Origin: Bauldia litoralis | Lineage (GTDB): Bacteria > Pseudomonadota > Alphaproteobacteria > Rhizobiales > Kaistiaceae | Direction of reading: 5' to 3' | Assembly: GCF_900104485.1 (NCBI RefSeq) | Contig: NZ_FMXQ01000002.1 | Location: 620,001 to 684,000, forward strand | Length of the DNA stretch: 64,000 bases | Part shown: positions 6,333 through 22,058 of the stretch, one piece after another | Numbering within the stretch: the stretch's first letter is position 1 | Layout: each line of letters starts with the position of its first letter | The notes under the pieces: generated by a model | Databases searched by the model: none | The model's input: only the letters and a program-made list of their open reading frames with translations | Told to the model about the DNA's origin: nothing | Made by a program: the position numbers and the translations under genes

Positions 6333-6353
6333 GAGCACCACGGAGTCCATGAA

Positions 6354-7745
6354 ATGCTGAATCGTAACGACCAACTCGACGCCTGGGACCGCGAGAGTTT
6401 CTTCCACCCCTCGACCCATCTCGCCCAGCACGCCCGCGGCGAGACGCCGACCCGCATCGTCACCGGCGGCGAAGGCGTCTACATCGTCGATCGCGACGGC
6501 AAGAAGAGCCTCGACGCTTTCGGTGGGCTTTACTGCGTCAATGTCGGCTATGGTCGTCCCGAGATCGCCGAGGCGATTGCCGACCAGGCAAAGTCACTCG
6601 CCTATTACCACGCCTATGTCGGCCACGGCACGGAAGCGTCGATCACCCTCGCCCACATGATCGCCGAACGGGCGCCCGACCATCTCAACCATGTCTATTT
6701 CGGCCTCTCCGGATCCGATGCCAACGAGACCAATGTCAAGCTGGTCTGGTACTACAACAACGTTCTCGGCCGGCCGCAGAAGAAGAAGATCATTTCGCGC
6801 TGGCGGGGCTATCACGGCTCCAGCCTGATGACCGGCTCGCTGACCGGGCTCGACCTGTTCCACAAGGCGTTCGACCTGCCGCTGGCGCCGGTGCTTCACA
6901 CCGAAGCGCCCTATTTCTTCCGCCGTCCCGACCGGTCGATGGACGAGGAATCGTTCTCGCAATATTGCGCCGACCAGCTTGAGGCGATGATCGTCGCCGA
7001 AGGACCGGACACCGTCGCCGCCTTCATCGGCGAGCCGATGCTGGGCACCGGTGGCATCGTGCCGCCGCCCGCCGGCTATTGGGAGAAGATCCAGGCCGTC
7101 CTCGCCCGCCACGATGTGCTGCTGATCGCCGACGAGGTGGTGACCGCCTTCGGACGGCTGGGTTCGATGTTCGGCTCCGAGCACTACGGCATCAAGCCCG
7201 ACATCATCACCATCGCCAAGGGACTGACCTCCGCCTATGCGCCGCTGTCCGGCTCGATCGTTTCCGACAAGGTCTGGGCGGTGCTGGAACAGGGCACAGA
7301 CGCGATGGGCCCGATCGGCCACGGCTGGACCTACTCCGCCCACCCCGTCTGCGCCGCCGCCGGTGTCGCCAACCTGAAGCTGGTGGACAGCCTCGGCCTC
7401 GTCGACAACGTCCGCGATGTCGGCGGCTACTTCCGCGGCGCGCTCGCCGACGCGGTCGGCGGTCATCGCATCGTTGGCGACGTTCGCGGCGAAGGCCTGC
7501 TGGCGGCGGTCGAATTTGTCGCCGACAAGGACGATCGGACTTTCTTCGATCCCGCCCTGAAGGTCGGACCGCAGATCGCCGCAGCACTCCTGAAGCGCGG
7601 CGTCATTGCCCGCGCCATGCCGCAAGGCGATATCCTCGGCTTTGCCCCGCCGCTCTGCCTGTCCCGGGACGAGGCCGATGTCGTCGTCCAGGCGACGGCC
7701 GAGGCGATCGACGAAGTCGCAAAGTCGCTTCAGGGAACGTCCTGA
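6354..7745 (+). CDS. atf: Class III PLP aminotransferase of ectoine catabolism (Atf/DoeD-like)
   Basis: 463-aa class III (omega) aminotransferase. The PLP lysine is K289 in [17 protein letters not shown]; the preceding D260-E261 ([13 protein letters not shown]) grips the cofactor ring. SGSDANETN (120-128) and RGYHGSS (151-157) are the other family landmarks. The start follows ACGGAG; an ATG three bases upstream would hit a stop at once. In ectoine clusters this enzyme (DoeD/Atf) is assigned to removal of an amino group from 2,4-diaminobutyrate, feeding aspartate-semialdehyde to the dehydrogenase just upstream. By sequence alone it could also act on beta-alanine, GABA or pyruvate-linked amines. 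A terminator hairpin follows. Confidence 0.82.
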
Positions 7746-7799: not shown

Positions 7800-8687
7800 T
7801 CAGGTGAGGACCGGCCGATCGTAGAAGGGAATGCGCTCGACCCGCGGCGACCACGCCCCGCTCGCGACCAGGCCATCGACATGAGCCGCGATCTCCTCGA
7901 GGGTCGCGAACCAGACATTCCCCTTGCCGATCATGTGCTCGATCAGAGCGCGGATCGCCATCGCCGGGCCCGGTCGGCCGCTCACGGCCGGATGCCACAC
8001 AGGAACGAACAGGCCGCCCCATTCCCACAGGGCGTCGAACTCGGCCTTGTAGACCTCCAACGCCCGGTTCGGCGGCGAGATGGTCATCAGGTAATCGAAC
8101 GCCCGGCTCGATACATACTGGTTGTAGTCGTCGACCGAGGCTGGCGGCGGCAGTTCCACCAGCCGCCCGGAATCCGATTGGAGAAGGATCGGAACATCGT
8201 CGGCGAACAGCGAGGAATCGTAAAGGAACCCGGCTTCGATCAGCAGATCGAAGCTATTGCGTGACAGGCCGTAATACGGCGCGCGGTAGCCTCGCGGCGC
8301 CTTGCCGGTCAGGTCCTCGATCCGGGCAATTCCCGCTGCCAGGGCCTCTCGCTCGGCGTCGATCCCCTGCTGGCTCGGCCATTCGTGGAACATGCCGTGA
8401 TGGGCGATCTCGTTGCGGCCGGTCAGGATGTGTTCGACGGGCTTGCGGTACGTGTCGATCACCCAGCCCGGTACGAAGCAGGTTATCGGGACATCGTAGC
8501 CGGCAAACAGATCGACCAGCCTCGGCAATCCGACATGCGGGTCGTAGCGCATCTGCGCGACCGCATGGACCTCGTCGACGACCCCGCCGCGCTTGCCGGC
8601 GTGGACGACACTGTCGGCGTCGACATCGAAGCTGAAACCGACCGCGCAGCGCGCGCTGTTCGGCCAGGGAGGCGGGTTGCGGATCAT
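7800..8687 (-). CDS. NodB-fold polysaccharide deacetylase-like amidohydrolase (HpPgdA type)
   Basis: 295-aa carbohydrate esterase 4-like protein without a signal peptide, so probably cytoplasmic. The metal motifs are present: FSFDVDAD (D21, D23), EIAHHGMFHE (H95/H96, H100) and RGYRAPYYG near residue 135. The overall pattern resembles Helicobacter PgdA-type proteins, a branch that also contains small-molecule amidases rather than only peptidoglycan deacetylases. It is the last gene of a Liv-type importer operon, 30 bases after livF. This suggests that it hydrolyses an N-acyl or cyclic amide group on the imported compound. The substrate is unknown. PuuE-type allantoinases share the fold but are usually longer. 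Confidence 0.75.
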   Translation of the reverse strand: MIRNPPPWPNSARCAVGFSFDVDADSVVHAGKRGGVVDEVHAVAQMRYDPHVGLPRLVDLFAGYDVPITCFVPGWVIDTYRKPVEHILTGRNEIAHHGMFHEWPSQQGIDAEREALAAGIARIEDLTGKAPRGYRAPYYGLSRNSFDLLIEAGFLYDSSLFADDVPILLQSDSGRLVELPPPASVDDYNQYVSSRAFDYLMTISPPNRALEVYKAEFDALWEWGGLFVPVWHPAVSGRPGPAMAIRALIEHMIGKGNVWFATLEEIAAHVDGLVASGAWSPRVERIPFYDRPVLT

Positions 8688-8717: not shown

Positions 8718-9458
8718 TCAGGATGTCCGCACGCCGCCGTCAATGAAAAGCCCGTGCAGGTCTTCGGTGGTGATGTCCGCCGGCTTGCAGTCGAGGGCAT
8801 CCTTGCCGCGCACCAGCACGCAGACCCGGTCGGCCAGCGCCAGGGCACGATTGACATTCTGCTCGACCAGCAGGATCGGGATCGACAACTCGCGATGGAT
8901 CCTGGCGATCGCCTCGAAAACGCTGTCGACCATCGTCGGCGCCAGATCGCTGCTCGGCTCATCAAGGAGCAGGACTTTCGGCTTGAGAAGGAGCGTCAGT
9001 CCGATGGACAGCATCCGCCGCTCGCCGCCGCTCAGCGTGCCGGCCAAGACGCGACGCTTCTCCTTGATCCGTGGAAACAGGGCGTAGACTTCCTCGACGT
9101 CTCGATCGAAGCTCTTCGGCCGCAGGAAGGCGCCCATCTTCAGATTGTCGGCGACGGTGAGGTCGAGGAACACGTTCTGGTTCTGCGGCACGTAGCCGAT
9201 CCCGCTGGCAGCGCGCCTGTGCGCCGCCCATCGGGTGATGTCCTCCCCGGCGAAGGTGATTGCGCCGCCAAGAATGCGGGTCAGTCCCGCCGTCGTCTTC
9301 AACACGGTCGACTTGCCGGATCCATTGGCGCCGAGGATCGTCAGGATCTCACCGGGATGAAGCTGGACTGCGACATCGTTCAACACGGTGATCAGGCCGT
9401 AGCCGGCCGTGACTGCGCGCAGTTCGAGGATCGGTGCCTTCGTCTCGGACTGTGTCAT
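8718..9458 (-). CDS. livF: Branched-chain-type ABC importer ATPase LivF (first system)
   Basis: Second ATPase of a HAAT-family importer, 246 aa. Walker A GANGSGKST spans residues 43-51, the signature reads LSGGERRM, and Walker B with D-loop VLLLDEPSSDLAP. The start overlaps the livG stop by four bases (ATGA), so translation is coupled. The enzyme forms a heterodimer with LivG on the cytoplasmic face of LivHM. The D-loop SSDLAP departs slightly from the usual LAP context but keeps all catalytic residues. Substrate specificity cannot be deduced from this subunit. Confidence 0.9.
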   Translation of the reverse strand: MTQSETKAPILELRAVTAGYGLITVLNDVAVQLHPGEILTILGANGSGKSTVLKTTAGLTRILGGAITFAGEDITRWAAHRRAASGIGYVPQNQNVFLDLTVADNLKMGAFLRPKSFDRDVEEVYALFPRIKEKRRVLAGTLSGGERRMLSIGLTLLLKPKVLLLDEPSSDLAPTMVDSVFEAIARIHRELSIPILLVEQNVNRALALADRVCVLVRGKDALDCKPADITTEDLHGLFIDGGVRTS

Positions 9459-10210
9459 GCCGGTTGTCCGAGATAGGACTGGATAACTTCGGCATTGTCG
9501 CGGATCTCCGCCGGCGTGCCTTCGGCGATCACGGCACCCGCATCGAGCACATAGACGACGTCGCAGACGTTGGAGATCATCTCCATGTTGTGCTCGATCA
9601 GGACGATGGCCCTGCCCTCGTCACGCAACGACCTGAGGAATTCCACCTGCTGCTCGATCAGCACCGGGTTGACGCCGGCAGCCGGTTCGTCGAGCAGCAG
9701 GACCTGCGGATCGGACATCAGCAGCACGCCCATGGTCAGGAGTTTCTGCTGTCCGCCGGAAAGGTTGCCGGCATAGTCATTGGCTTTCTCGACCAGGCCG
9801 AGCCGCTTGAGGATCGCCACGCTCCGGGCAAGGGCGTCCGCTTCCATCGCGGCAACCCTGCCTGGGCGGAGGAAGAGGTCGAACAGCCGCTCGCCGGGCT
9901 GATCGCGGGCGCCGACAAGCATGTTCTGGAGAACCGTCAGCCGCTGCGCGAGGCGCGGGACCTGGAAGGTCCGGCCGATACCCCGGGCCGCGACCGCCTC
10001 GATCCGGCCAAGCGGCAGCGGCTTGTCGTTCAGGCGAACCTTACCCGCGTCGGGCCGATAGATCCCGCTGACGATGTTGAGGAGCGTCGACTTGCCCGAA
10101 CCGTTCGGCCCGACCAGGCCGACAATCGATCCCGGCCGCGCCACCATGCTGACGCCGCGAAGCGCCTGAAAACCACCGAAGGCGATGCTGACGTCAGAGA
10201 CCGTCAACAT
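9455..10210 (-). CDS. livG: Branched-chain-type ABC importer ATPase LivG (first system)
   Basis: 251-aa ATPase from the ATG at 10210 (MLTVSDVSIAFGGFQALRGV); upstream in-frame codons merely read through livM on another frame. Walker A is GPNGSGKST, the signature LSGGQQKL, and Walker B VLLLDEPAAGVNP, which is typical for LivG. The C-terminal extension AEGTPAEIRDNAEVIQSYLG is the LivG tail. The gene overlaps livM by 17 bases and livF by four, consistent with one polycistronic unit livK-H-M-G-F-deacetylase. Confidence 0.9.
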   Translation of the reverse strand: MLTVSDVSIAFGGFQALRGVSMVARPGSIVGLVGPNGSGKSTLLNIVSGIYRPDAGKVRLNDKPLPLGRIEAVAARGIGRTFQVPRLAQRLTVLQNMLVGARDQPGERLFDLFLRPGRVAAMEADALARSVAILKRLGLVEKANDYAGNLSGGQQKLLTMGVLLMSDPQVLLLDEPAAGVNPVLIEQQVEFLRSLRDEGRAIVLIEHNMEMISNVCDVVYVLDAGAVIAEGTPAEIRDNAEVIQSYLGQPA

Positions 10211-11069
10211 TTTGCACCCTCTTGGTTTCCGGGAAGAGCCCCGCGGGCCTGAACAGGAACATGAGCACCAGGATGAGCCCGAAGACGGCGAGGCGCAGGT
10301 TGGCGACGAGATCCGACGGCAGTCCGGACCATTCCGCCAGGAAGCGCGTCGAGACACTCATCAGGATGAGAATCGCGGCACCGATGACAACGCCGATATT
10401 CCGGCCCGGCCCGCCGAGGATGACGGCGGTCCAGACAAGGAAGGTGTCGGTGACCAGGAAGGAAGTCGGTGCGACATAGCCGATGACATGGGCGTAGAGC
10501 ACCCCGGCAACGCCTGCCATCGCCCAGGACACGACCGTGACCCTCATGCGGAAGGACATCGGAGAGCGACCGAGCGTTGCCGCCAGCGTCTCGTCCTCGC
10601 GGATCACCCGCAGCATGCGCCCGAACGGTCCGTTGCCGATCTGCTGCGCAACCGCATAGGCGACGACGCAGAGCGCCACCGCCAGTCCGGCTGCGAGCGT
10701 CCGATCGGGCAGCCGCGAAACGGTGACACCGTCGGCGCCGCCGGCGATCGACGGCACGTTCAGCATCGTCAGCCGGAAGATTTCGCCCGCGCCCAGCGTG
10801 ATCAGCGCCCAGTAGTCCTGCGAGGAGCGCCCTGCCGGCAGGATGACGAGGATACCGGCGATCGGTGCGGCGACCAGACCGGCCACGGCGCCGACCCACC
10901 ACGGAAGGTCGTATTGGACACCGATAGCGGCCGCATAGGCCCCGATGGCGAATGGCAGGATCTGGCCGAAATTCACCAGGCCGGTCATCCCGAACTGGAT
11001 GTTCAGGCTGATCGCCATCACCGACCAGATGGCCACAAGCGTCAGCGCATAGATCGCGAAATCGATCAT
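10194..11069 (-). CDS. livM: Branched-chain-type ABC importer permease LivM (first system)
   Basis: 291-aa inner-membrane permease with roughly eight hydrophobic segments. The LivM coupling loop is visible (GRMLRVIREDETLAATLGRS, then PMSFRMR), and GLVNFGQILPFAIGAYAAA near the N terminus is the hallmark segment of this permease family. It begins two bases after the livH stop and overlaps livG. Together with LivH it forms the channel. Confidence 0.9.
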   Translation of the reverse strand: MIDFAIYALTLVAIWSVMAISLNIQFGMTGLVNFGQILPFAIGAYAAAIGVQYDLPWWVGAVAGLVAAPIAGILVILPAGRSSQDYWALITLGAGEIFRLTMLNVPSIAGGADGVTVSRLPDRTLAAGLAVALCVVAYAVAQQIGNGPFGRMLRVIREDETLAATLGRSPMSFRMRVTVVSWAMAGVAGVLYAHVIGYVAPTSFLVTDTFLVWTAVILGGPGRNIGVVIGAAILILMSVSTRFLAEWSGLPSDLVANLRLAVFGLILVLMFLFRPAGLFPETKRVQNVDGL

Positions 11070-11071
11070 GG

Positions 11072-11953
11072 CTAGTTCGCCCCCCGTTTGGTCATTGACG
11101 GACGGAGGAGGAGAACCAGGACCAGCGCCAGCACAGCGACGTAATCACGGAACTGGCTCGGCACGAACCACGATTGATCCGACACCAGCGAGCCGAAGTC
11201 GATCGAGATGATGAAGTTCTGCGCCAGCGACAGGAACAACGCGCCGAGCACGGCTCCGAAGACGTTGCTGAGCCCGCCGATGGTGACCGCGGCAAAGACC
11301 GGAAGCAGGATGATGAGGTCCATGTTGGGCTGCAGGCGGGTCTCCAGCGCGATCAGGGAGCCGCCGATCGCCGCATAGGCTCCGGATATGAACCACATCA
11401 GCCGGATCATCCGCTCGCCCGGGATGCCGCGGGTTACGGCCAGATCGTAGTTGCTGGCCAGCGCCCGCAGGCCCGATCCGGTGCGGGTCCGGTACAGAAA
11501 CGCGTGCAGGAGCACCATGAAGGCGACCGTCGCCGAGACGACGATCACGTCGAGTGAGGTGAAGATCGCGCCGGCGAAGCGGATCGGCGTCGTGTTGGTT
11601 TCGATGATGATCGACCCGCCGCCGAAGATCGACGCGACGATGGCGCGGATCAGGAGGGCGACGCCCCAGGAAACGATCATCTTGCCCTCGGGCGAGATGT
11701 GGCGGAGCCGGCTGAACACGAGAATATCGACGACGACCGCCAGTCCACCGACGAAAACGGCGCTGGCGGGAACCGCGAGAATCAACGGCAGGCCAAGTTC
11801 CGTCGCGACATAAGTGGCGTAGCCACCGACCACCGCGAACTGGATGTGCGCAAAATTGGCGAAACGGAGGATCGAATAAGCGAGCGAGATGCCAACGGCG
11901 ACGATGGCGATCTCGCTGGCATAGATGATCGAATTGACGAAGACCTGAATCAC
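11072..11953 (-). CDS. livH: Branched-chain-type ABC importer permease LivH (first system)
   Basis: 293-aa inner-membrane permease. SILRFANFAHIQFAVVGGYA (residues 27-46) is the LivH version of the family motif, and the cytoplasmic loop RTGSGLRALASNYDLAVTRG provides the ATPase contact. It lies 98 bases after livK, separated by a strong hairpin, and two bases before livM. The protein ends RPSMTKRG, close to the usual C terminus. Confidence 0.9.
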   Translation of the reverse strand: MIQVFVNSIIYASEIAIVAVGISLAYSILRFANFAHIQFAVVGGYATYVATELGLPLILAVPASAVFVGGLAVVVDILVFSRLRHISPEGKMIVSWGVALLIRAIVASIFGGGSIIIETNTTPIRFAGAIFTSLDVIVVSATVAFMVLLHAFLYRTRTGSGLRALASNYDLAVTRGIPGERMIRLMWFISGAYAAIGGSLIALETRLQPNMDLIILLPVFAAVTIGGLSNVFGAVLGALFLSLAQNFIISIDFGSLVSDQSWFVPSQFRDYVAVLALVLVLLLRPSMTKRGAN

Positions 11954-11988
11954 GTGACCTCGGGCCCGGTTGCCCGTTCATAAAACAT

Positions 11989-12015
11989 TTGGCCGGGCAG
12001 CGCGCCCGGCCAAAC
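11989..12015 (-). terminator. Hairpin between livK and livH
   Basis: Perfect 11-base arms TTTGGCCGGGC (11989-11999) and GCCCGGCCAAA (12005-12015) flank a five-base loop. On the minus strand it is followed by TGTTTTAT, a short T-rich stretch. It probably acts as a partial terminator that makes the binding protein more abundant than the membrane subunits. Confidence 0.7.
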
Positions 12016-12051
12016 AGCGTAGCCGAATGAAGTCGGGTGGCGGATCGGACC

Positions 12052-13173
12052 TTAATCGATCGTCCCGACGGTTTCGAACTTGCCGCCCTTGTACTCGATG
12101 ATGTCGAGCGGCGGATCGATGCGCTGGCCGCGATCGTCCCAGACGATCTTGCCGGTCGCCCCGACATACGACTCGACAACCGACGGCAGTGCCGCAGCGA
12201 TTTCCGCGGACTCGACACCCCCGGCTTCAATCGCCTTGGCAAGGACCATCATCGCGTCATAGCCGTAGTAGATATGCGCCAGCGGCTCGTCTTCGTCCGG
12301 CCATTTCGCCTTGTAGGCCGCAAGCACCGCCGCGCCACCGTCGTTGGCGTAACCACCGTTGTCGACGCCCGACAGCTTGCCGTTCATCCACTCCTCGTTC
12401 TCGACCGCAAAGATCGACGGATAAGCGGCGTACCAGGGTGCATCGAAACCCAGTTCCCGTGCGTTCTTGAAGACCGTCCGCGAATCGTCGCCGTAACCGA
12501 CGCCGACCAGAGCGTCCGGCTCGGCCGCGATGATGGCCTGCACGTCGGCACGGTAGTCCGGTTGTCCCTCGGTATACGCGACTTTTCGAACGATCTTGCC
12601 GCCGGCGGCCTCGAATGCCGCGCCCGCCGCATCGGCGATGCCGGTGCCGAACGTATTGTTGGGAACGATGGTCGCGATCGACCGGGCGCCCTTGTCATAG
12701 ACATACTGCCCGAGTTCCTTGCCGACGATGTTGTCTAGCGGCAGGATCGAGAACAGCGCACCCGGATAATCACCCAGCTTGGCGGAGCTCGATGACGTGT
12801 TGATCAGCACCTTGCCTTCCTGCTGTGCAAGCTCACCGACCGGAATCATCAGGCTTGAACCGCCAAACATGATCACTGCGGGAACCTGGTTGACCTGATA
12901 GAGCTTGGTGGCCGCCGTCAGGGCTTCCTGTGCCTTGTATTCGGAATCCTCGACGATCAGTTCGATCATCTTGCCGTCGATCCCGCCGGCTGCGTTGATC
13001 TCGTCGGCGGCCAGTTCGACGCCGCGCGCCATCTGGAGGCTGGTGTTGACGTCCTGTCCTGTGAGGTTGGCGATGACACCGACCGGAATGGTATCCGCAG
13101 CTAGGAGCGCCCCTGGCTGGGCGACAATGGCTGCTGCCGCAAAGACGGCCGCATTCAATAGATTACGCTTCAT
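12052..13173 (-). CDS. livK: Periplasmic substrate-binding protein of Liv-type importer
   Basis: 373-aa periplasmic binding protein of the peripla_BP_6 (Leu/Ile/Val/amide) family. The signal peptide is residues 1-25 (MKRNLLNAAVFAAAAIVAQPGALLA). The mature part carries GVIANLTGQDVNTS, ELAADEINAAGGIDG (the family helix) and a ligand-loop region MFGGSSLMIPVGELAQQEGK. It is the first gene of the importer operon, transcribed away from the nucleoside hydrolase gene. Family members bind branched amino acids, amides, urea or aromatic acids. The neighbouring hydrolases suggest a nitrogenous compound, but the ligand is not determinable here. Confidence 0.85.
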   Translation of the reverse strand: MKRNLLNAAVFAAAAIVAQPGALLAADTIPVGVIANLTGQDVNTSLQMARGVELAADEINAAGGIDGKMIELIVEDSEYKAQEALTAATKLYQVNQVPAVIMFGGSSLMIPVGELAQQEGKVLINTSSSSAKLGDYPGALFSILPLDNIVGKELGQYVYDKGARSIATIVPNNTFGTGIADAAGAAFEAAGGKIVRKVAYTEGQPDYRADVQAIIAAEPDALVGVGYGDDSRTVFKNARELGFDAPWYAAYPSIFAVENEEWMNGKLSGVDNGGYANDGGAAVLAAYKAKWPDEDEPLAHIYYGYDAMMVLAKAIEAGGVESAEIAAALPSVVESYVGATGKIVWDDRGQRIDPPLDIIEYKGGKFETVGTID

Positions 13174-13439
13174 GGTGTCCCCTTTTCACCGACGCTGTTT
13201 CCGCGTCGCGCTTGGTCGATAGTTAGACGGCGATAAGCCCGAGAAACAGGAAGCAAAGGTTAGACCAGAGATCGCTGTCAGGCGAGGGTTTTTGCTTTTC
13301 GGTCCAATGGAAAGGCGTCTTCCACTCCAGATGGTATCGAGGGTCTTTTCGCGCAGCGCCATTGCTGGACAACGCCGTGGAATCGCCTTCCCATGTCGCC
13401 GAACCGGAGGCCCAGCCCTCCCGGAAGAAGACGGACGAC

Positions 13440-14381
13440 ATGGCCAGCCGCAAGATCATCATCGATACCGACCCCGGACAGGATGATGCCTTTGCCATCC
13501 TGCTTGCGCTCGGGTCACCGGAACTTGAGGTCGTGGGCGTCACCGCCGTTGCCGGCAACGTGCCCGTGTCGAAGACCGAGTGGAATGCCCGACGCGTGCT
13601 TGAACTCGGCGGGCGGCAGGATATCCGCGTCGCCCCCGGCTGTTCGCGGCCGATGGTCAAGTCGCTGTTCACGGCCGAGTACGTGCATGGCGACAGTGGC
13701 CTGGAAGGGTGCGACCTGCCCGAACCGTCGATGCCCGCCCTGGACATCCACGCCATCGACTTCCTCATCGACCGCCTGATGGCCGAACCGGAAGGCGAGA
13801 TCACCCTCTGTCCGCTCGGCCCGCTCACCAACATCGCCATGGCGATGGTCAAGGAGCCGCGGATCCTTGGCCGGATCCGGGAGATCGTGCTGATGGGCGG
13901 CGGCTATTTCGAAGGCGGCAACACGACGCCGGCGGCCGAGTTCAACATCTTCGTCGACCCGCACGCCGCACACGTCGTCTTCACCTCGGGCGTTCCGCTG
14001 ACGATGGTTCCGATCGACTGCACCTACAAGGCGCTAATGACGCCAGCGTGGCTGGAGGAACTCCGGGCGCTCGGCACACGAACCGCCCGCGAGGCGGCCG
14101 GCATGGCCAGCTTCTATCAGGAGTACGGCAACCAGAAATTCGGCACCGACTCCTATCCGCTCCACGACCCCTGCGTGATCGGTTACCTGCTGCGGCCCGA
14201 CCTCTTTCAGGGACGGGCCTGCCACGTCGAGATCGAGACGACATCGCCAACGACCTTGGGAATGACGGTCGTCGACTGGTGGAACGTCACCAAGCGGCCG
14301 ACCAACTGCCACGTCCTGCGCGACCTCGATAATCCCGCCTTCTACGCGCTCATGCTGGAACGGATCGGGCGCCTGCCCTAG
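13440..14381 (+). CDS. Inosine/uridine-preferring nucleoside hydrolase family protein
   Basis: 313-aa protein with the nucleoside hydrolase calcium site DTDPGQDDA at residues 9-17 and the later conserved segments CPLGPLTNIA, VLMGGGYFEGGNTTPAAEFN and DPHAAHVVF. These enzymes cleave the N-glycosidic bond of ribonucleosides, releasing base and ribose. The ATG at 13440 is chosen because the calcium motif then sits at the usual distance from the N terminus; an upstream in-frame ATG at 13362 adds 26 unlike residues. GGAAGAAG lies upstream. It is divergent from livK, and its stop is 10 bases from the end of cofGH. It may process an imported nucleoside-like compound. Confidence 0.85.
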   Translation: MASRKIIIDTDPGQDDAFAILLALGSPELEVVGVTAVAGNVPVSKTEWNARRVLELGGRQDIRVAPGCSRPMVKSLFTAEYVHGDSGLEGCDLPEPSMPALDIHAIDFLIDRLMAEPEGEITLCPLGPLTNIAMAMVKEPRILGRIREIVLMGGGYFEGGNTTPAAEFNIFVDPHAAHVVFTSGVPLTMVPIDCTYKALMTPAWLEELRALGTRTAREAAGMASFYQEYGNQKFGTDSYPLHDPCVIGYLLRPDLFQGRACHVEIETTSPTTLGMTVVDWWNVTKRPTNCHVLRDLDNPAFYALMLERIGRLP

Positions 14382-14391
14382 CCGAGGGCCT

Positions 14392-16827
14392 TCATTTCCG
14401 CTGGGCGTAGCGGCCTTCGCCTGCCTCGCCTTTTCGGCGCAGCGGCGTGTTGGCCACATCGGACAGCGGTCCGGCACCGAATGCCGCCGCGCGACGCTCG
14501 GGCGAGACAGCCTCGTAGGTTGTCGTGCGCATCACCGGTTGGCGGCCGATCGAGCGGATGAGCGTTTCCATTCCCTCGGGCGACATTTCCTGGCCATGGG
14601 CGGCGCCGGCCGCGCGCGAGATCGTCTCGTTCATCAGCGTGCCGCCAAGGTCGTTGGCGCCCGCCCGCAGCACGGCCGCGGCACCTTCGGCCCCCATCTT
14701 CACCCACGACACCTGGATGTTCGGAACGTGCGGATGGAGAACGAGCCGGCCGACGGCGTGCATCAGCACTGCCTCGCGGAAGGTGGGGCCCCGCCGCGCC
14801 AGCCCCTTCAGGTACATCGGCGCTTCCATGTGAACGAAGGGCAGCGGCACGAACTCGGTGAAGCCGCCGGTCTCAACCTGGAGGTCGCGGATCGCCAGCA
14901 GGTGGCGCGCCCAGGAGAGCGGCGTCTCCATGTGGCCGAACATGATCGTCGAGGTCGTCCGGAAGCCGGCCTGGTGCGCCGCGCGCATGACCTGCAACCA
15001 TTCGCCGGTCCGGATCTTGTCGGGGCAGAGAATGGCGCGCACGTCGTCGTCGAGAATCTCCGCCGCGGTACCAGGCAGCGTGCCGAGGCCCGCTTCACGC
15101 AGCATCACAAAATAGTCGTCGAGATCGACGCCGAGCGTCGCCGCCCCCTGCCAGATCTCGAGCGGCGAGAAGGCATGGATATGCATCCCCGGTGCGGCCG
15201 CCTTCACCGAGCGACAGATGTCGAGATAGGTCGCCCCGGTGAAGTCGGGATGGATGCCGCCCTGCATGCACACCTCGGTCGCTCCGCGCTCCCATGCCTC
15301 GCGCGTCCGCCGCTCGATCTCGTCAAGTGTCAGGTCGTACGGCGTGCCGCGCAGGTTCTCGCTGAGCTTTCCCTTGGAGAAGGCGCAGAAGCGGCATTTG
15401 TAGGTGCAGACATTGGTGTAGTTGATGTTGCGCGTCACGACGTAGCTGACCGCGTCGCCATTGACCGCGCGACGGAGTTCATCGGCCGCAGCACAGAGCG
15501 CGGCAAGGTCGCCACCACGGGCAGCGAAGAGCGACGCGATCGCCGCCGGCTCAAGGCGTTCGCCCGCCACGGCCCGGTCGATCAGGCGGTTCACCGCCCT
15601 TCCCGTCGCCGGCGCGACATCCAGCGATGCGATGGCCTCGTGCGGTGGCTCGGCATCAATCCCCGGCGACCAGTCGCTGTCGCGGACGAGCCCGGCCGCG
15701 TCCACCCGATGCAGCGCGGCGACGCGCAATTCCGGCGCGAGCCAGCGGTCACCGTCCTGGAGATAGGCCGGGTATATCGGCAACCGCTGGGCGAGCGACT
15801 TGCCGGCCGCCTCGGTCGCCGCCTCGAGCACCTTCAGGTGTGGCCACGGCGCTTCCGGATTGACGTAGTCCGGCGTCACCGGCGACACCCCGCCCCAGTC
15901 GTTGATCCCGGCGGCTATCATTCGCCCGAGTTCGCCTGGAGCGGCCAGGTTCGGCGGCGCCTGAATGCTCATCGCCGGCCCGAAGATCAGCCGGGCAACC
16001 GCGATGGTCCACAGGTGATCCTCGGTCGAGGGCTCCGGAGCATCGGCCATCCGCGTCCCCGGCTTCGCCCGAAAGTTCTGGACGATGATCTCCTGGATGT
16101 GACCATGCCGCTCATGCGCGGCGCGAAGCGCCAGCATCGCCTCTATGCGCTCACGGCGGGTCTCGCCAATGCCGATCAGGAGACCGGAAGTGAAGGGAAC
16201 CGCTGCTTCGCCGGCGCGCTCGATCGTGGTCAGCCGCGCCGCAGGTTCCTTGTCCGGCGATCCGAAATGCGGCCCTCCCCGCTCCGACAGGCGCGCGGAG
16301 GCTGTCTCGAGCATGATGCCCATCGATGCCGACACCGGCCGAAGCGCGGCAAGGTCCGCCGCTTCCATCAGGCCCGGATTGAGATGCGGAAAGAGTCCCG
16401 TCCGGGCGAAGATCGCCGCAGCGACCTCGCGGAGATAGGAGAGCGTCGTTGCATGGCCGAGCGCCGCCAGTTCCTCCCGCGCCGTGCGATAGCGCAACTC
16501 CGGCTTGTCGCCGAGCGTGAGCAGCGCCTCGGTACAGCCGGCCGCCTGCCCCGCTTCGGCGACGGCGACCGCCTCGTCGATGGTGAGGTACGCCCGTTCG
16601 CCGCGTCGTGGCGGATGGGCGAAGGTGCAGTAATGGCAGACGTCGCGGCAAAGCTGGGTCAGCGGGATGAAGACTTTCCGCGAATAGGTCACAACCGAGC
16701 CATATCCGGCATTCCGGATATCGCAGGCGACCGCAAGGAGGCTCGGGAGATCGTCGATCTCGACGAGCCGCAGTGCCTCGTCATCCTCGATGCGCCCCGA
16801 TGCGGCGCGTTTCAGCAACGCATTCAC
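14392..16827 (-). CDS. cofGH: Bifunctional FO synthase (CofG-CofH fusion)
   Basis: 811-aa radical-SAM fusion enzyme that condenses tyrosine with 5-amino-6-ribitylaminouracil to make the deazaflavin FO, the chromophore of F420. The CofG half holds CRDVCHYC (C60, C64, C67) and the CofH half CTYKCRFC (C474, C478, C481), each a 4Fe-4S site. The domain order CofG then CofH matches actinobacterial FbiC. The start is a GTG at 16827 overlapping the cofC stop (GTGA). It is the last gene of the F420 operon and converges on the nucleoside hydrolase gene with only 10 bases between. A fusion in a proteobacterium points to shared ancestry with, or transfer from, Actinobacteria-type clusters. Confidence 0.95.
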   Translation of the reverse strand: MNALLKRAASGRIEDDEALRLVEIDDLPSLLAVACDIRNAGYGSVVTYSRKVFIPLTQLCRDVCHYCTFAHPPRRGERAYLTIDEAVAVAEAGQAAGCTEALLTLGDKPELRYRTAREELAALGHATTLSYLREVAAAIFARTGLFPHLNPGLMEAADLAALRPVSASMGIMLETASARLSERGGPHFGSPDKEPAARLTTIERAGEAAVPFTSGLLIGIGETRRERIEAMLALRAAHERHGHIQEIIVQNFRAKPGTRMADAPEPSTEDHLWTIAVARLIFGPAMSIQAPPNLAAPGELGRMIAAGINDWGGVSPVTPDYVNPEAPWPHLKVLEAATEAAGKSLAQRLPIYPAYLQDGDRWLAPELRVAALHRVDAAGLVRDSDWSPGIDAEPPHEAIASLDVAPATGRAVNRLIDRAVAGERLEPAAIASLFAARGGDLAALCAAADELRRAVNGDAVSYVVTRNINYTNVCTYKCRFCAFSKGKLSENLRGTPYDLTLDEIERRTREAWERGATEVCMQGGIHPDFTGATYLDICRSVKAAAPGMHIHAFSPLEIWQGAATLGVDLDDYFVMLREAGLGTLPGTAAEILDDDVRAILCPDKIRTGEWLQVMRAAHQAGFRTTSTIMFGHMETPLSWARHLLAIRDLQVETGGFTEFVPLPFVHMEAPMYLKGLARRGPTFREAVLMHAVGRLVLHPHVPNIQVSWVKMGAEGAAAVLRAGANDLGGTLMNETISRAAGAAHGQEMSPEGMETLIRSIGRQPVMRTTTYEAVSPERRAAAFGAGPLSDVANTPLRRKGEAGEGRYAQRK

Positions 16828-17510
16828 TGGACCGCCTCCGGGCCGTCAACCGTCGCGCGGAAGCGTGCGCCTATTCCGGAGCGCGCCAGGTAGTGCCCCG
16901 TTGCCCCGTCGTGGTCGAGGATCGCGGCAAGATCGTCCGGTCGGTCGATGTCATGGGCAAGTTCGGGGACGTCCAGACCGCGCCAGCCTATTCCCCGCGC
17001 CTCCGCCGCCCGCTGATGGAGATGATAGCTGCCGGCGCCGAAGCAGAACGGAACCAGGTCGACCGGCCGGGCCACCATCGCGTTCGTACCTTGCCGCCTC
17101 CTGTCCGGAACCAGAGTCAGCGGCGGTCCGTCGGCAGCGGTTGCCAAGAGACTTTCGATTGCAAGCGGGGTGGCGAGCGGAAGATCCGCGTGGAGAACCA
17201 GCATCGACGCGGCCCGCTCACCCAGGAGGGTCGCCGCCGCTCTCGCGACCGCGGCGGTGGTGCCATCGTCAGTCGGATCGGCAAGAACACGAAAGCCGTG
17301 ATCCTGCCCCAACGCGGCAAAGCCGTCATCGCCGGTCACCAGCATGACGCCGGACAGCCCGCGCACCGCCGACAGAGCGGTCAGAACGTCACGAACCATC
17401 GCTTCGGCAAGGTCGGCGCGCTCCATCGGCCCAAGCAGCGACGCAAGCCGCTGCTTGGCCGCCTCGCGACGCTTGATCGGGACGACGCACCAGGGCGCCA
17501 CGGGAGTCAT
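16824..17510 (-). CDS. cofC: 2-phospho-L-lactate (or 3-phosphoglycerate/PEP) guanylyltransferase CofC
   Basis: 228-aa nucleotidyltransferase of the CofC/FbiD family that activates a three-carbon phospho-acid with GTP for F420 side-chain assembly. Family segments visible are VVPIKRREAAKQRLASLLGP (residues 8-27), LVTGDDGFAALG, and LVLHADLPLATPLAIESLL with the metal-binding Asp. It overlaps cofD by four bases and cofGH by four. Whether it uses phospholactate, phosphoenolpyruvate or 3-phosphoglycerate cannot be read directly; the last gives the 3PG-F420 found in some proteobacteria. Confidence 0.92.
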   Translation of the reverse strand: MTPVAPWCVVPIKRREAAKQRLASLLGPMERADLAEAMVRDVLTALSAVRGLSGVMLVTGDDGFAALGQDHGFRVLADPTDDGTTAAVARAAATLLGERAASMLVLHADLPLATPLAIESLLATAADGPPLTLVPDRRRQGTNAMVARPVDLVPFCFGAGSYHLHQRAAEARGIGWRGLDVPELAHDIDRPDDLAAILDHDGATGHYLARSGIGARFRATVDGPEAVQ

Positions 17511-18469
17511 GTCCGAGGCTCCAGTCGACCGGCGAATGCCAGGACCGAACGGGCGAGCGCCTCACGATCCGCCATGCTTTGCATCAGCGTCGGCACGACA
17601 TCGACCGCCACCGGGAATGCCGCCCTGTCGGCTGCGTCTTTGTCGTCGAGCACGAAGCCATCGATCAGGCCCTCATAGTGGGAAGCCACCGCAAGGGCCG
17701 TTACCGGGATATCCAGTTCCGCCATGATCTTGGCGGTCGGTCCCTTGACCGCCTGTCCGCCGATGATCGGCGTCACCGCGACAACGGGAGCCGACGTCGA
17801 ACGGATCGCCGCGCGCATCCCCGGCACCGCGAGGATCGGATCGACACTGAGAAAGGGATTGGACGGGCAGATGACTACAGCGCGCACATCGGGATCGGCA
17901 AGCGCCGCCAGCACCCGCGGGCTCGGCCGGGCGGTTTCGGCACCGTCGAAACGGATCCGCTCGACCCGGGGCTCGCATCGGCGGCCGACGAAATAGCGCT
18001 GGAAGCCCAGCACGCCCTCATCGGTCTCGACGAAGGTCCGAACCGGGTCGTCGCTCATCGGCAGGATCTCGGCGGCAATGCCAAGTCGCCGCGCCAGGTC
18101 GGAGGTTATTGTCGTCAGCGTCTCGCCGGCCTTCAGGCGGAGCGTGCGCTGCACATGCATGGCGAGATCGGCGTCACCCAGGTTGAACCAGTCTTCGCCG
18201 CCAAGTGCCTTGAGCGCGGCCATGAAGGCCCAGGTCTCGTTCGCCCGGCCCCAGCCGCGCTCGCGGTCGGCGAGATCGGCGAGCGTGTAGACGACCGTGT
18301 CGATGTCCGGCGAGACATGCAGCCCGAGATGCTCGAAATCGTCGCCCGTGTTGACCACCACGGTAAGCTGCTCCGGCGTCAGGATCCGATAGAGCCCGAG
18401 GGCCAGCTTGGCGCCGCCGACGCCGCCGCAGATGGCGACGACCTTGCCTGGGATCTCGCTCTTGCTCAT
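17507..18469 (-). CDS. cofD: 2-phospho-L-lactate transferase CofD
   Basis: 320-aa enzyme that transfers the phospholactyl-type moiety onto FO to give F420-0. The glycine-rich N-terminal GGVGGAKLALGLY, the NTGDDFEHLGLHVSPDIDT segment and CPSNPFLSVDPIL near residue 200 are the CofD landmarks for binding FO and the guanylylated donor. It starts with ATG at 18469, overlapping cofE by four bases. Length and motifs are normal, so the enzyme should be functional. Confidence 0.95.
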   Translation of the reverse strand: MSKSEIPGKVVAICGGVGGAKLALGLYRILTPEQLTVVVNTGDDFEHLGLHVSPDIDTVVYTLADLADRERGWGRANETWAFMAALKALGGEDWFNLGDADLAMHVQRTLRLKAGETLTTITSDLARRLGIAAEILPMSDDPVRTFVETDEGVLGFQRYFVGRRCEPRVERIRFDGAETARPSPRVLAALADPDVRAVVICPSNPFLSVDPILAVPGMRAAIRSTSAPVVAVTPIIGGQAVKGPTAKIMAELDIPVTALAVASHYEGLIDGFVLDDKDAADRAAFPVAVDVVPTLMQSMADREALARSVLAFAGRLEPRT

Positions 18470-19236
18470 CGGAAGAGGTCCCGTTCCTTCGGCCGGATCA
18501 GCGCCGCGGCGGGCATGGCATCGCGATCCCAGGCGAGGCCGCGCACCAGAACGGCGGGCAGTCCTTCGTCCGCCTGGCCCATGACCAGCGATGCGGCGGC
18601 GGCGATCTCGTCGGCGAAGCCGATCTCGGTTCCGCGCAATTCACGGCCGAACAAGTCCGCCTCCCCGGTCCGCACGACCAGCGACGGAAGCCCCGCCGCG
18701 CCGATCGCCACTCCGGTCACCCCATGGCGCCACGCGCGGCCGAAACTGTCGGCGATGACGACCCCGATATCGACGCCGAACCGCTCGTCCAGCGCCTGCT
18801 TGAGCCGCAGCGCCGATCCATCGGGATCCTCCGGCAGGAGCAGCGCCAGCTCCCGGCCCTCCGGATGCCGGATATTCGACTGGTCGATCCCGGCATTGGC
18901 CATCACCAGCCCGAGCCGGTGAACCACGATCATGATGCCCGGGACATTGCGCAGGATCGTCCCGGATTCCGACAGGATGAGTTCGACCAGGCGCGGTTCC
19001 TTGCCGGAGACCGCCGCCAGTTCCCTGGCCCGGGCCGAAGGGACGACGGTGGCGAGATCGACCAGCCGGCCCTCTGCCTTGGAAACGATCTTCTGGGCGA
19101 TGACGAGCACATCCCGGTCGCGCGGACCGATGTCCGCCGCCAGGAGCGACCTCGCCAGCATCGCCGGCAGGTCATCGCCAGCTTCGACCGGTGGAAGGCC
19201 GGGCAACGCCGAAAGGGTAACGGTCGGGACAGTCAT
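18466..19236 (-). CDS. cofE: Coenzyme F420-0:L-glutamate ligase CofE
   Basis: 256-aa GTP-dependent ligase that adds gamma-linked glutamates to F420-0. Conserved segments are DVLVIAQKIVSKAEGRLVDL, LVMANAGIDQSNI and the metal/GTP site VVIADSFGRAWRHGVTGVA. It is the stand-alone form without the C-terminal nitroreductase-like domain of actinobacterial FbiB. It is therefore not clear from sequence whether the dehydro-F420 reduction step found in Actinobacteria is needed here or handled elsewhere. It lies four bases after npdG and overlaps cofD. Confidence 0.95.
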   Translation of the reverse strand: MTVPTVTLSALPGLPPVEAGDDLPAMLARSLLAADIGPRDRDVLVIAQKIVSKAEGRLVDLATVVPSARARELAAVSGKEPRLVELILSESGTILRNVPGIMIVVHRLGLVMANAGIDQSNIRHPEGRELALLLPEDPDGSALRLKQALDERFGVDIGVVIADSFGRAWRHGVTGVAIGAAGLPSLVVRTGEADLFGRELRGTEIGFADEIAAAASLVMGQADEGLPAVLVRGLAWDRDAMPAAALIRPKERDLFR

Positions 19237-19239
19237 TCG

Positions 19240-19911
19240 TCAGCTTGGCTTTGCGGTCCCGGTGATCCGGATGCCGGCTCCATCGATCTTGTAGCGACGA
19301 TTGATGCCGATAAGTACACTGGTCAGGGCCTCCGCGACCACCGAATTCGCCAGAGGACCTGCCTCGAGGCCGCGCAGCCCCATCGCGTCCACCAGCGTGA
19401 CGACGATGGCTCGCGCATCCTTGTCGTTGCCGCAGACCAGAACGTCGCAGTCGACGGCTTCGTCCTTTTGCAGCCTGTGCGCCGCAACGTTGTGGAGCGC
19501 CGACACCACCCGGACATCGGACCCAAGACGGTTCTGCGTCGCCACGGCAACCGATCCCTCCGGCGGCAGATGCACGGTGGAAACCTTGGGCGGCTGCAAG
19601 GGCACCGTCGTATCGACGACGATCTTGCCGGACACCACTGGCCCGATTTCGTCGAGGATCGCCGCGTGGCTGGCGAAGGGCACGGCAAGGAAGACGACCT
19701 CCGCCCGAGCGGCCGCCTCGCTGTTTGTGGCGCCGACGATTGCGCTGCCGCCAAGCGCGGCATTCATCTCCGCCGCCGCCGCAACGGCCCTGGCCGCGTC
19801 GCGCGAGCCGATCACCACCGGGTATCCGGCCAGCGCCAGCCGGCGTGCGATCCCCAGCCCGAGGGCGCCAGTGCCGCCGATGACCGCCACGACGGTCGAT
19901 TGATCACCCAT
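19240..19911 (-). CDS. npdG: F420:NADP oxidoreductase (NpdG/Fno type)
   Basis: 223-aa Rossmann-fold enzyme that moves hydride between NADPH and F420. The nucleotide-binding motif is IGGTGALGLGIARRLALAG, with SRD after the second strand (consistent with NADP). VFLAVPFASHAAILDEI, VDTTVPLQ and the C-terminal NSVVAEALTSVLIGINRRYK are family features. The start at 19911 follows AGGAGAGAG; longer in-frame readings run through the neighbouring gene. Since no F420-dependent glucose-6-phosphate dehydrogenase is in the window, this is the apparent source of F420H2 for the oxidoreductase at the head of the operon. Confidence 0.92.
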   Translation of the reverse strand: MGDQSTVVAVIGGTGALGLGIARRLALAGYPVVIGSRDAARAVAAAAEMNAALGGSAIVGATNSEAAARAEVVFLAVPFASHAAILDEIGPVVSGKIVVDTTVPLQPPKVSTVHLPPEGSVAVATQNRLGSDVRVVSALHNVAAHRLQKDEAVDCDVLVCGNDKDARAIVVTLVDAMGLRGLEAGPLANSVVAEALTSVLIGINRRYKIDGAGIRITGTAKPS

Positions 19912-19934: not shown

Positions 19935-21110
19935 TCAGGCCTTGATGACCAGATCGCGCGGAAACCGGGTCATCACCTCGGGGCTGCCGTTTTCGGTCAC
20001 GCGAAACGTCTCGCTCAATTCGAACCCCCGGTCGTCCTCCCACATACCGAGGATCATGTGAAAGCACATATCGGGCCGCAACACCGTGCGATCGCCCTCC
20101 CGCAGGCTTGCGGTCCTTTCGCCCCAGTCGGGCGGGTAGTTCAGCCCGATCGAGTAGCCGATGCGGGAGGCCTTCTCGTAGCCGGCGCGAGTAATTACAG
20201 CGCGCCATGCAGCTTCGACCTCCTCGCAGGTCACGCCGGCCCGGGCCGCTTCGAGCGCGGTTTCGAGACCTTCCTCGACAACCGCGGCAAGCTTCAGCAG
20301 ATGGTCCGGCGGGCGGCCCAGATAGACGGTCCGGGCGAGAGCGGCGTGGTACCGGTTATGGCAGCCGCCAAGTTCGAGATAGGCGACACTGTCCTGTTCG
20401 TAACGGTCGCCCGACCAGGTCAGGTGCGGCGCGGCGCTCTTGGCGCCGCTGGGAACAGAGGGCAATGCCGCGGGATAGTCGCCCCAGAAGCCGGCGGTGC
20501 CATGGACTTGCGCAGCCATGATCTCGGCCACGGCATCGCATTCGCGGACGCCCGGCGCCACCGCGTCGATGCCCACTTTCATCGCTTCCGAGACGATATC
20601 CGCCGCGCCACGCATCATGGCGATCTCGGCCGGCGACTTGACGATACGCGCCCATCCGACAAGACGGTGGGCATTGACGAAGCGCGCCGACGGCAAGCCG
20701 GCGACCAGTTCGGCATGGGCCTGTGCGGTATAGTACCAGGAGTCCATTTCGACGCCGATCCGCGCCGAACCGAGTTTCCGGCGGAGCAGTTCCCCGGCGA
20801 CTAAAGCCGCCGGATGCAGCGTCTCGGAGTCGACATGGCTCTCCGGATAGGCAACGAGGCTGTCTTCGTCGAGCCAACTCGTCAGCCGCGCCCCTGGCGC
20901 GTCCATTCCCCGACCGATCCATAGCGGCTGCTCGCGGTCGCCAATCACCACGACATACTGGTGCACATAGAATGACCAGCCGTCGTATCCGGTCAGGTAA
21001 TTGAGACTCGCGGGATCGGCGAGGACGAGCACATCGGCCCCGGCCTCGCCCATCGACGCCTTCACCCGCGCAAGCCGCGCGGCATACTCCGCTTTCGAAA
21101 ACGCGCTCAT
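19935..21110 (-). CDS. M24 pita-bread hydrolase resembling ectoine hydrolase (DoeA/EutD)
   Basis: 391-aa protein with a creatinase N-terminal domain (about 1-155) and a pita-bread catalytic domain (160-391). Several segments look like ectoine hydrolase DoeA/EutD as I remember it: TGYDGWSFYVHQ (40-51), SAAPHLTWSGDRYEQD (225-240) and GLNYPPDWGERTASLR (322-337). The metal ligands of true M24 aminopeptidases are missing: the first Asp region reads YLELGG (244-249), the second ALARTV (257-262), and the usual GHGxG is GYSIG (318-322). EutD is likewise metal independent. It is embedded in the F420 operon between the LLM oxidoreductase and npdG. It may open a cyclic amidine or hydrolyse an amide; ectoine itself is one candidate. 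Confidence 0.75.
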   Translation of the reverse strand: MSAFSKAEYAARLARVKASMGEAGADVLVLADPASLNYLTGYDGWSFYVHQYVVVIGDREQPLWIGRGMDAPGARLTSWLDEDSLVAYPESHVDSETLHPAALVAGELLRRKLGSARIGVEMDSWYYTAQAHAELVAGLPSARFVNAHRLVGWARIVKSPAEIAMMRGAADIVSEAMKVGIDAVAPGVRECDAVAEIMAAQVHGTAGFWGDYPAALPSVPSGAKSAAPHLTWSGDRYEQDSVAYLELGGCHNRYHAALARTVYLGRPPDHLLKLAAVVEEGLETALEAARAGVTCEEVEAAWRAVITRAGYEKASRIGYSIGLNYPPDWGERTASLREGDRTVLRPDMCFHMILGMWEDDRGFELSETFRVTENGSPEVMTRFPRDLVIKA

Positions 21111-21140: not shown

Positions 21141-22058
21141 TCAGAACAATTCCGGGAAATTGGCGTGGAATGCCCGCACCGCGTCGATATGCGCCTGCGG
21201 GTTGGCCAATCCACCGATCGCCGCCTTGTTCCAGCGCTTCTCTTCCTCGACCCAGCGCTCCGGCATTGTGTTGATGGTGATGTGCGTCGCACCGATCCTG
21301 CGCCAATCGTCGATCTCGGTGCGGAGCTCTTCCGGCGTCCGATCGATGATCGTCATGGTCGCCTCGATGCCGATCGTGTCGGGATCGCGTCCATAGGAGA
21401 CTGCCATCTCTCTCATCGCATCGATGCTTCGCTTGCCGAGATCGTCGGCCTGGAAATTCGGCAGCCAGCCGTCACCGAGCTGCGCCGTCCGCCGGATCGC
21501 CGCCTTGGAGATGCCGCCGATCCAGATCGGGATCGGACGCTGGATCGGCAACGGGTTGATGCCGCCGTCCTCGATCCGGTGATACTCACCCTCGTAGGTG
21601 ATCAGATCGGAGGTCCACAGCTTGCGAAGAACGTCGATCTGCTCATCGACACGCTTGCCGCGATTGCCGAAATCCTCGCCGCAGGCTTCGAACTCCTCCG
21701 GCTTGACCCCGACGCCGATGCCGAGGCGCAAACGCCCGTTCGACAACACGTCCACTTCCGCTGCCTGCTTGGCGACAAGCGCCGTGCCACGCATCGGGAG
21801 CACCAGGATCCCGGTGACGAATTCGATCCGGGTGGTCACCGCGGCGAGATATCCGAAGAGGACAAAGATCTCGTGGAACATGTCCTCCGCGTCATGGACG
21901 TATTTCCAGTCCGGCCGGCTTTTCTTGTTGAGTCCGATGATCTGGTCGAAGCTGGTCAGATGCGTGTAGCCGAGGTCGTCTGCAGCTTGCGAGAAATCCC
22001 GGATGCTGACCGGATCGAGGCCGATCTCAAACTGCGGGAACAGTGCACCAATCTTCAT
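21141..22058 (-). CDS. LLM-class F420-dependent oxidoreductase
   Basis: 305-aa TIM-barrel protein of the luciferase-like superfamily. It opens MKIGALFPQFEIGLDPVSIR. Family segments include FVTGILVLPMRGTALVAKQA (strand and helix with the non-prolyl cis region), LSNGRLRLGIGVGVKPEEFE and PIPIWIGGISKAAIRR. It resembles the Rv2161c-type F420-dependent family. Being the first gene of the F420 operon argues for F420 rather than FMN. AGGAAGG precedes the ATG. The substrate is unknown; such enzymes reduce or oxidise a C-C, C-O or C-N bond. The M24 hydrolase gene follows 30 bases later, suggesting consecutive steps. Confidence 0.85.
   Translation of the reverse strand: MKIGALFPQFEIGLDPVSIRDFSQAADDLGYTHLTSFDQIIGLNKKSRPDWKYVHDAEDMFHEIFVLFGYLAAVTTRIEFVTGILVLPMRGTALVAKQAAEVDVLSNGRLRLGIGVGVKPEEFEACGEDFGNRGKRVDEQIDVLRKLWTSDLITYEGEYHRIEDGGINPLPIQRPIPIWIGGISKAAIRRTAQLGDGWLPNFQADDLGKRSIDAMREMAVSYGRDPDTIGIEATMTIIDRTPEELRTEIDDWRRIGATHITINTMPERWVEEEKRWNKAAIGGLANPQAHIDAVRAFHANFPELF

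Follow-up and report, generated by a model that had tools for sequence, protein, structure and literature searches.

Among M24-fold hydrolases without a metal site, the closest described relatives of the protein considered here are ectoine hydrolase (EutD/DoeA, TIGR02993; PDB 6twj, 6twk and 6yo9) and, at distant similarity (E 5e-11), creatinase (PDB 1chm). Both enzymes act on a carbon between two nitrogens, and the creatinase fold also cleaves linear substrates. The classical reductive catabolism of pyrimidines, involving PreTA/PydA, dihydropyrimidinase and beta-ureidopropionase, proceeds through reduction of the base, ring opening, cleavage of the ureide and transamination, while in the Rut pathway uracil is attacked by RutA, an FMN monooxygenase of the luciferase-like (LLM) fold. 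A precedent for reduction of the uracil C5-C6 bond by a putative F420/FMN enzyme is SSGG-03002/NpsU of uridyl-peptide antibiotic biosynthesis, for which there is genetic support in Streptomyces and for which no in vitro activity was obtained (PMC10714638). An F420-type LLM has also been proposed for reductive urate breakdown encoded by Chloroflexota gene clusters (PMC12507026). Opening of a ring after its reduction is known from nicotinate catabolism, where it is catalyzed by the cyclic imidase HxnM (PMC9304392), a relative of the allantoinase PuuE within the same group of polysaccharide deacetylase-fold enzymes (PMC3084791). Why Proteobacteria make F420 was listed as an unanswered question in a 2021 review (PMC8498797).

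The window, a stretch of 64,000 nucleotides from the alphaproteobacterium Bauldia litoralis, carries a gene cluster for which the same succession of reduction, ring opening, ureide cleavage and transamination is proposed, with an F420-type LLM, a PuuE-like hydrolase and an M24 hydrolase in place of the classical pyrimidine enzymes. Homologues of PydA/PreA, dihydropyrimidinase and ureidopropionase are absent from the cluster, PreA and dihydropyrimidinase being encoded elsewhere in the genome. The LLM would, like RutA, act on a nucleobase, but with F420 instead of as an FMN monooxygenase, and RutA scores above its cut-off in none of the 11 genomes with the cluster. With a probability that we put at about 0.6, the M24 protein hydrolyses a C-N bond without metal as part of a reductive, F420H2-dependent breakdown of an N-heterocycle derived from a nucleoside, the heterocycle being most likely a pyrimidine.

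The M24 protein and its relation to ectoine hydrolase

The M24 gene is an exact and complete open reading frame at 19935-21110 on the reverse strand, with an ATG start, encoding 391 amino acids with Creatinase_N and Peptidase_M24 domains; its annotation as a metal-free, EutD-like C-N hydrolase draws on profile and structure matches, alignment and tree placement. As the sequence-only reading had noted, the protein resembles DoeA/EutD: its top matches are the NCBIfam EutD model (TIGR02993, 434.5 bits, below the equivalog cut-off of 613) and the EutD crystal structures 6twj/6twk (E 1e-104), the two families agree in fold and length, and TGYDGWSFYVHQ and GLNYPPDWGERT align column for column with EutD, the TGYDGWSFYVHQ and YPPDWGERT signature motifs being common to both. 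The same reading had described the metal sites and a histidine as replaced, and alignment with the prolidase-like 7n02 confirms this for five of five metal ligands (Asp to Glu246, Asp to Ala257, His to Tyr319, Glu to Ile353 and Glu to Ser366), the D, D, H, E, E set of M24 metallopeptidases (Xaa-Pro peptidases) being absent. EutD likewise has non-ligands at these five positions (E255, P266, Y329, M363 and T376), so the loss is not odd by itself; it is, judging from the alignment, a property of the whole EutD-like group. Residues Y48, H229, E246 (E255 in EutD), H255, R260, W329, E331, R337 and H351 form a core that is kept in nearly all rows of every EutD-like group. Fixed differences between the clade of the window protein and EutD include Y38/W42, D94/Q97, E190/K194, A257/P266 and N324/S334 (clade/EutD). 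D94, E190, K224 and A257 are all fixed in the clade and different in EutD, and A257 is found outside the clade only in Chloroflexota/Thermomicrobiota sisters and in one other row. A shared core combined with clade-specific residues is consistent with unchanged catalysis but another ligand.

The window protein groups with its orthologues in two trees, in a monophyletic clade of 11 (support 100/96) whose nearest outside neighbours are proteins of Chloroflexota and Thermomicrobiota. This clade is separate from the EutD clade of 24 rows (100/100), which holds 6twk, R. pomeroyi EutD and the true EutD of this same genome. The latter, to which the window protein is 49% identical, answers the check for a second eutD that the sequence-only reading had proposed: the genome encodes six M24 proteins, one of them from an orthodox eutD 3.3 kb to the left of window base 1 (contig C16, 615561-616742; locus L007), between doeB and eutC-eutB-eutA. 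The sequence-only reading had placed the M24 gene 12 kb from the ectoine genes, which is correct for a doeC/doeD-like pair (4839-7745); the undoubted ectoine genes (doeB, eutD, eutC, eutB and eutA) all lie left of base 1, with eutD about 23 kb from the M24 gene.

The partners of ectoine hydrolase are also missing around the orthologues. EutE/DoeB is absent from the M24 operon of the window and from every orthologous locus, scores above its cut-off in none of the other ten orthologue-bearing genomes, and gives no match of any strength in three Ancylobacter genomes; eutABC and doeB are not found near the orthologues, except for EutA-like and weak EutB-like matches in one locus (L049). The idea that the window gene is this organism's ectoine hydrolase in an odd place, one of two alternatives raised by the sequence-only reading, is therefore rejected, on account of the second, true eutD in a complete operon, the separate tree placement and the lack of EutE above cut-off in ten genomes; the window protein is, on sequence evidence, a paralogue of EutD/DoeA in a different operon. 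A relocated ectoine or hydroxyectoine hydrolase, or a duplicate that retains this activity, could draw on the identity to the true EutD, on the strong match to the EutD model and on the presence of a 53%-identical relative in an ectoine operon, and against the findings above it is most improbable. That the protein does not act on ectoine and is part of the catabolic pathway of its cluster is very probable. Proteins named ectoine hydrolase by similarity thus include a separate lineage, probably with another job, so that similarity to EutD is by itself an unsafe indicator that ectoine is used.

The 53% relative was the only further sequence returned by a class-wide search for orthologues. It is an EutD-like protein outside the main EutD clade (L080:9116-10285, genome G123) and is encoded in a full ectoine operon with doeB, enuR, eutB and eutC; therefore, more than one lineage of the EutD-like family serves ectoine.

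The F420 operon

The sequence-only reading had located the M24 gene inside an F420 operon, and this stands. It is the second gene of a leftward seven-gene operon, between the LLM gene (21141-22058) and npdG for NADPH-dependent F420 reductase (19240-19911), followed by cofE (18466-19236), cofD (17507-18469), cofC (16824-17510) and cofGH for FO synthase of the FbiC type (14392-16827), all on the reverse strand. The gaps are 30 bp between LLM and M24 and 23 bp between M24 and npdG, with 4-bp overlaps among the last genes. Apart from M24, the operon genes exceed curated model cut-offs (e.g. 191 bits against 150 for npdG, with profile matches for the cof genes), the LLM only at subfamily level (TIGR03619 F420 family, 261.2 bits against 166.9). 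At E 1e-12 no other LLM is found in this genome, and a fold search relates the protein to both FMN monooxygenases and F420 enzymes; a function as F420H2-dependent reductase is proposed from the TIGR03619 assignment and from synteny.

Ten F420-making relatives have a similar cof operon without the LLM-M24 pair. The pair thus looks like an addition to the cof operon, and the link between M24 and F420 is one-way, since these relatives make F420 without an M24 protein of the window type. A role in F420 maturation was judged unlikely on the same grounds. Service to F420 metabolism itself, for example trimming of the glutamate tail of F420, would suit a peptidase fold encoded within a cof operon; the operons of the ten relatives, the loss of the peptidase metal ligands and a locus (L040) in which the M24 gene adjoins LLM and PuuE-like partners instead of cof genes make it exceedingly unlikely. 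Among 101 relatives, cofD is present in two of three carriers of the M24 clade (chance 0.037), an association that is weak alone.

CofH is present in 9 of the 11 genomes with the cluster, and cof genes lie within the cluster in most. The clusters contain F420-reducing enzymes of two unrelated kinds, NpdG in the window and FGD (TIGR03554, above cut-off) in loci L041 and L046, FGD being a glucose-6-phosphate dehydrogenase that reduces F420. Because F420H2 would come from these enzymes, its consumption is the most plausible role for the LLM. We infer both the F420 cofactor of the LLM and the direction of its redox reaction, and use of F420H2 by this predicted reductase is probable. A search for F420H2_quin_red (PF04075) gave no match, and none in control genomes either.

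Two genomes depart from this pattern. The near-complete metagenome-assembled genome G008 (locus L040) has the cluster of LLM, M24 and nucleoside hydrolase with neither CofH nor CofD, and with no second EutD-like protein, which could point to a gap in the assembly, to salvage, or to an LLM that works without F420 and might use FMN. Genome G021 (locus L041) has cofC, cofD, cofE and FGD in its cluster and no match to CofH in the genome; it may represent a gap or salvage, perhaps with dependence on imported FO, or its LLM might use FMN.

The conserved gene cluster

The ten orthologues of the M24 protein (60-77% identity) are found in Ancylobacter, Martelella, a Rhizobiaceae metagenome-assembled genome, two genomes of the same family as B. 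litoralis and one gammaproteobacterium. In all Hyphomicrobiales loci LLM and M24 are adjacent, with a nucleoside hydrolase gene close by on the opposite strand, which diverges from the five genes of a branched-chain-type ABC importer; the PuuE-like gene comes next wherever the stretch covered is long enough. A class III aminotransferase gene adjoins the LLM or the importer in most of these loci. The window carries all conserved parts of the cluster between 6354 and 22058, and the conserved gene order joins the LLM-M24 pair into one unit with the nucleoside hydrolase, the ABC importer and the PuuE-like hydrolase, a connection that the sequence-only reading had missed.

The nucleoside hydrolase gene of the window (13362-14381, forward strand) encodes a protein closest to the pyrimidine/uridine type, its nearest structures being the cytidine/uridine-specific 6ba0 and the RihA enzyme 4wr2; its matches to models including UriH and RihA stay under all equivalog cut-offs. 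The importer genes, all on the reverse strand and assigned from profiles or from conservation across loci, encode a branched-chain-type (HAAT) substrate-binding protein (12052-13173), two permeases (11072-11953 and 10194-11069) and two ATPases (9455-10357 and 8718-9458), the first ATPase gene being given as its longest open reading frame, with a true start probably nearer 10216. Between the binding-protein and nucleoside hydrolase genes, positions 13174-13361 form a divergent promoter region; the arrangement is kept in other loci, and a regulator was not found. The PuuE-like protein (7800-8687, reverse strand; PuuE allantoinase/cyclic-imidase-like, polysaccharide deacetylase fold) matches PuuE along its entire length and has D21, H97 and H101 conserved; its match to HP0310 covers half at the sequence level and is complete at the fold level. 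Its kinship with PuuE, HxnM and imidases concerns this partner gene and not the M24 protein itself.

The remaining genes of the proposed route are the doeC/doeD-like pair, on the forward strand beside ectoine regulator genes. The class III aminotransferase (6354-7745) groups with the cluster aminotransferases encoded beside LLM-M24 elsewhere (100/100), and not with the two DoeD proteins tested, and the aldehyde dehydrogenase (4839-6332) is of the succinate-semialdehyde type by profile, with a counterpart in L041 that also lies beside the aminotransferase and the LLM. From tree and synteny, the pair may serve the F420-linked pathway, or both this and ectoine degradation.

In the gammaproteobacterium, only LLM, PuuE-like and M24 genes are kept together, without a nucleoside hydrolase gene nearby. 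This trio (L084, genome G106) is accompanied by genes for an EutA-like racemase, an acyl-CoA ligase and a 3-hydroxyproline-dehydratase-like protein, and the genome gives 23 LLM matches. Within the stretches covered, the cluster is absent around the Chloroflexota and Thermomicrobiales sisters of the M24 clade (L061 and L065).

A proposed F420H2-dependent route and its substrate

The simplest scheme, in which we infer both the substrate and which hydrolase acts first, runs as follows. A nucleoside or base would be brought in by the ABC importer (8718-13173), and the nucleoside hydrolase would free the base. The LLM would then reduce the aromatic ring with F420H2, which NpdG would regenerate from NADPH, and the PuuE/imidase-like enzyme would open the dihydro ring. 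The M24 protein would attack the carbon between two nitrogens of the resulting ureide or amidine, in the manner of EutD with ectoine or creatinase with creatine; the products would be carbamate and an amino acid, which would be beta-alanine in the case of uracil. The aminotransferase and the aldehyde dehydrogenase would complete the route via a semialdehyde. The second alternative of the sequence-only reading, in which a paralogue acts on another substrate and its pathway draws on F420H2, finds support in its outline from the conserved synteny with an F420-type LLM and F420-reducing enzymes. Two specifics of that reading are not supported: a cyclic amidine as substrate, and the use of F420H2 in the following step, reduction more likely preceding hydrolysis.

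The same cluster and pathway would also accommodate a reversed division of labour, in which the M24 protein opens a reduced amidine-type ring, such as that of dihydrocytosine or dihydrouracil, leaving cleavage of the linear product to the PuuE-like enzyme. EutD, with the same catalytic core, opens a six-membered 1,3-diazine ring, and the M24 gene lies directly beside the LLM gene in every Hyphomicrobiales locus. The known members of the group of the PuuE-like partner, however, open cyclic ureides or imides, and creatinase, of the same fold as the M24 protein, cleaves linear substrates, so that this order of events appears rather unlikely.

For the base, we regard a pyrimidine as an even chance. 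The cluster could instead degrade another nucleoside-derived or an unrelated heterocycle (a purine, a modified base or a nicotinate-type ring), a minority possibility of some weight. The sub-threshold scores of the nucleoside hydrolase, the suspected part of an F420-type LLM in Chloroflexota urate degradation, the CoA-ligase and hydratase genes next to the gammaproteobacterial trio and the presence of a classical PreTA in this genome all speak for it; the kinship of the nucleoside hydrolase with cytidine/uridine-specific and RihA enzymes speaks against it, as does the conserved cluster core, in which no xanthine dehydrogenase or pyridine hydroxylase was seen. Uracil as the base is not proven, given the classical system: B. 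litoralis encodes PreT/PreA, and a dihydropyrimidinase-type enzyme is present in 11 of 11 genomes with the cluster, so that a second route for uracil would be redundant. PreA is lacking in 7 of these 11 genomes, against 58 of 101 relatives (43 of 101 have it), and its absence was rejected as support for a uracil role because the background rate is similar. With classical PreTA present and PreA absence at background rate, the plain uracil reading is weakened and another base is quite possible; uracil or thymine as the base, with M24 as the ureide-cleaving enzyme, is a doubtful specification of the pyrimidine route.

Taken as a whole, the pyrimidine version would mean that Hyphomicrobiales possess a hitherto undescribed reductive pathway for pyrimidine nucleosides that depends on F420H2, every Pyd step being carried out by an unrelated protein (an F420 LLM as uracil/cytosine reductase, a PuuE-type ring opener and a metal-free EutD paralogue as ureide hydrolase), a possibility that we put forward tentatively. 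If it is true, the pathway would be the only LLM-type use of F420 in this genome. The import of a nucleoside and the F420-linked breakdown of its ring, as the cluster seems to encode them, would give Proteobacteria a concrete reason to make this rare cofactor. The cluster offers a concrete and easily tested client pathway for F420 in culturable genera (Ancylobacter and Martelella).

Two minor observations concern F420 genes in these genera. In both Martelella loci, a cystathionine-gamma-synthase-family gene (L046:672-1850) immediately precedes FGD and the cof genes. In an Ancylobacter genome (G101, locus L085), the neighbours of the FO synthase gene are a further LLM, CoA-transferase-like genes and a branched-chain-type ABC importer different from that of the cluster, an arrangement that perhaps represents a second F420 client pathway.
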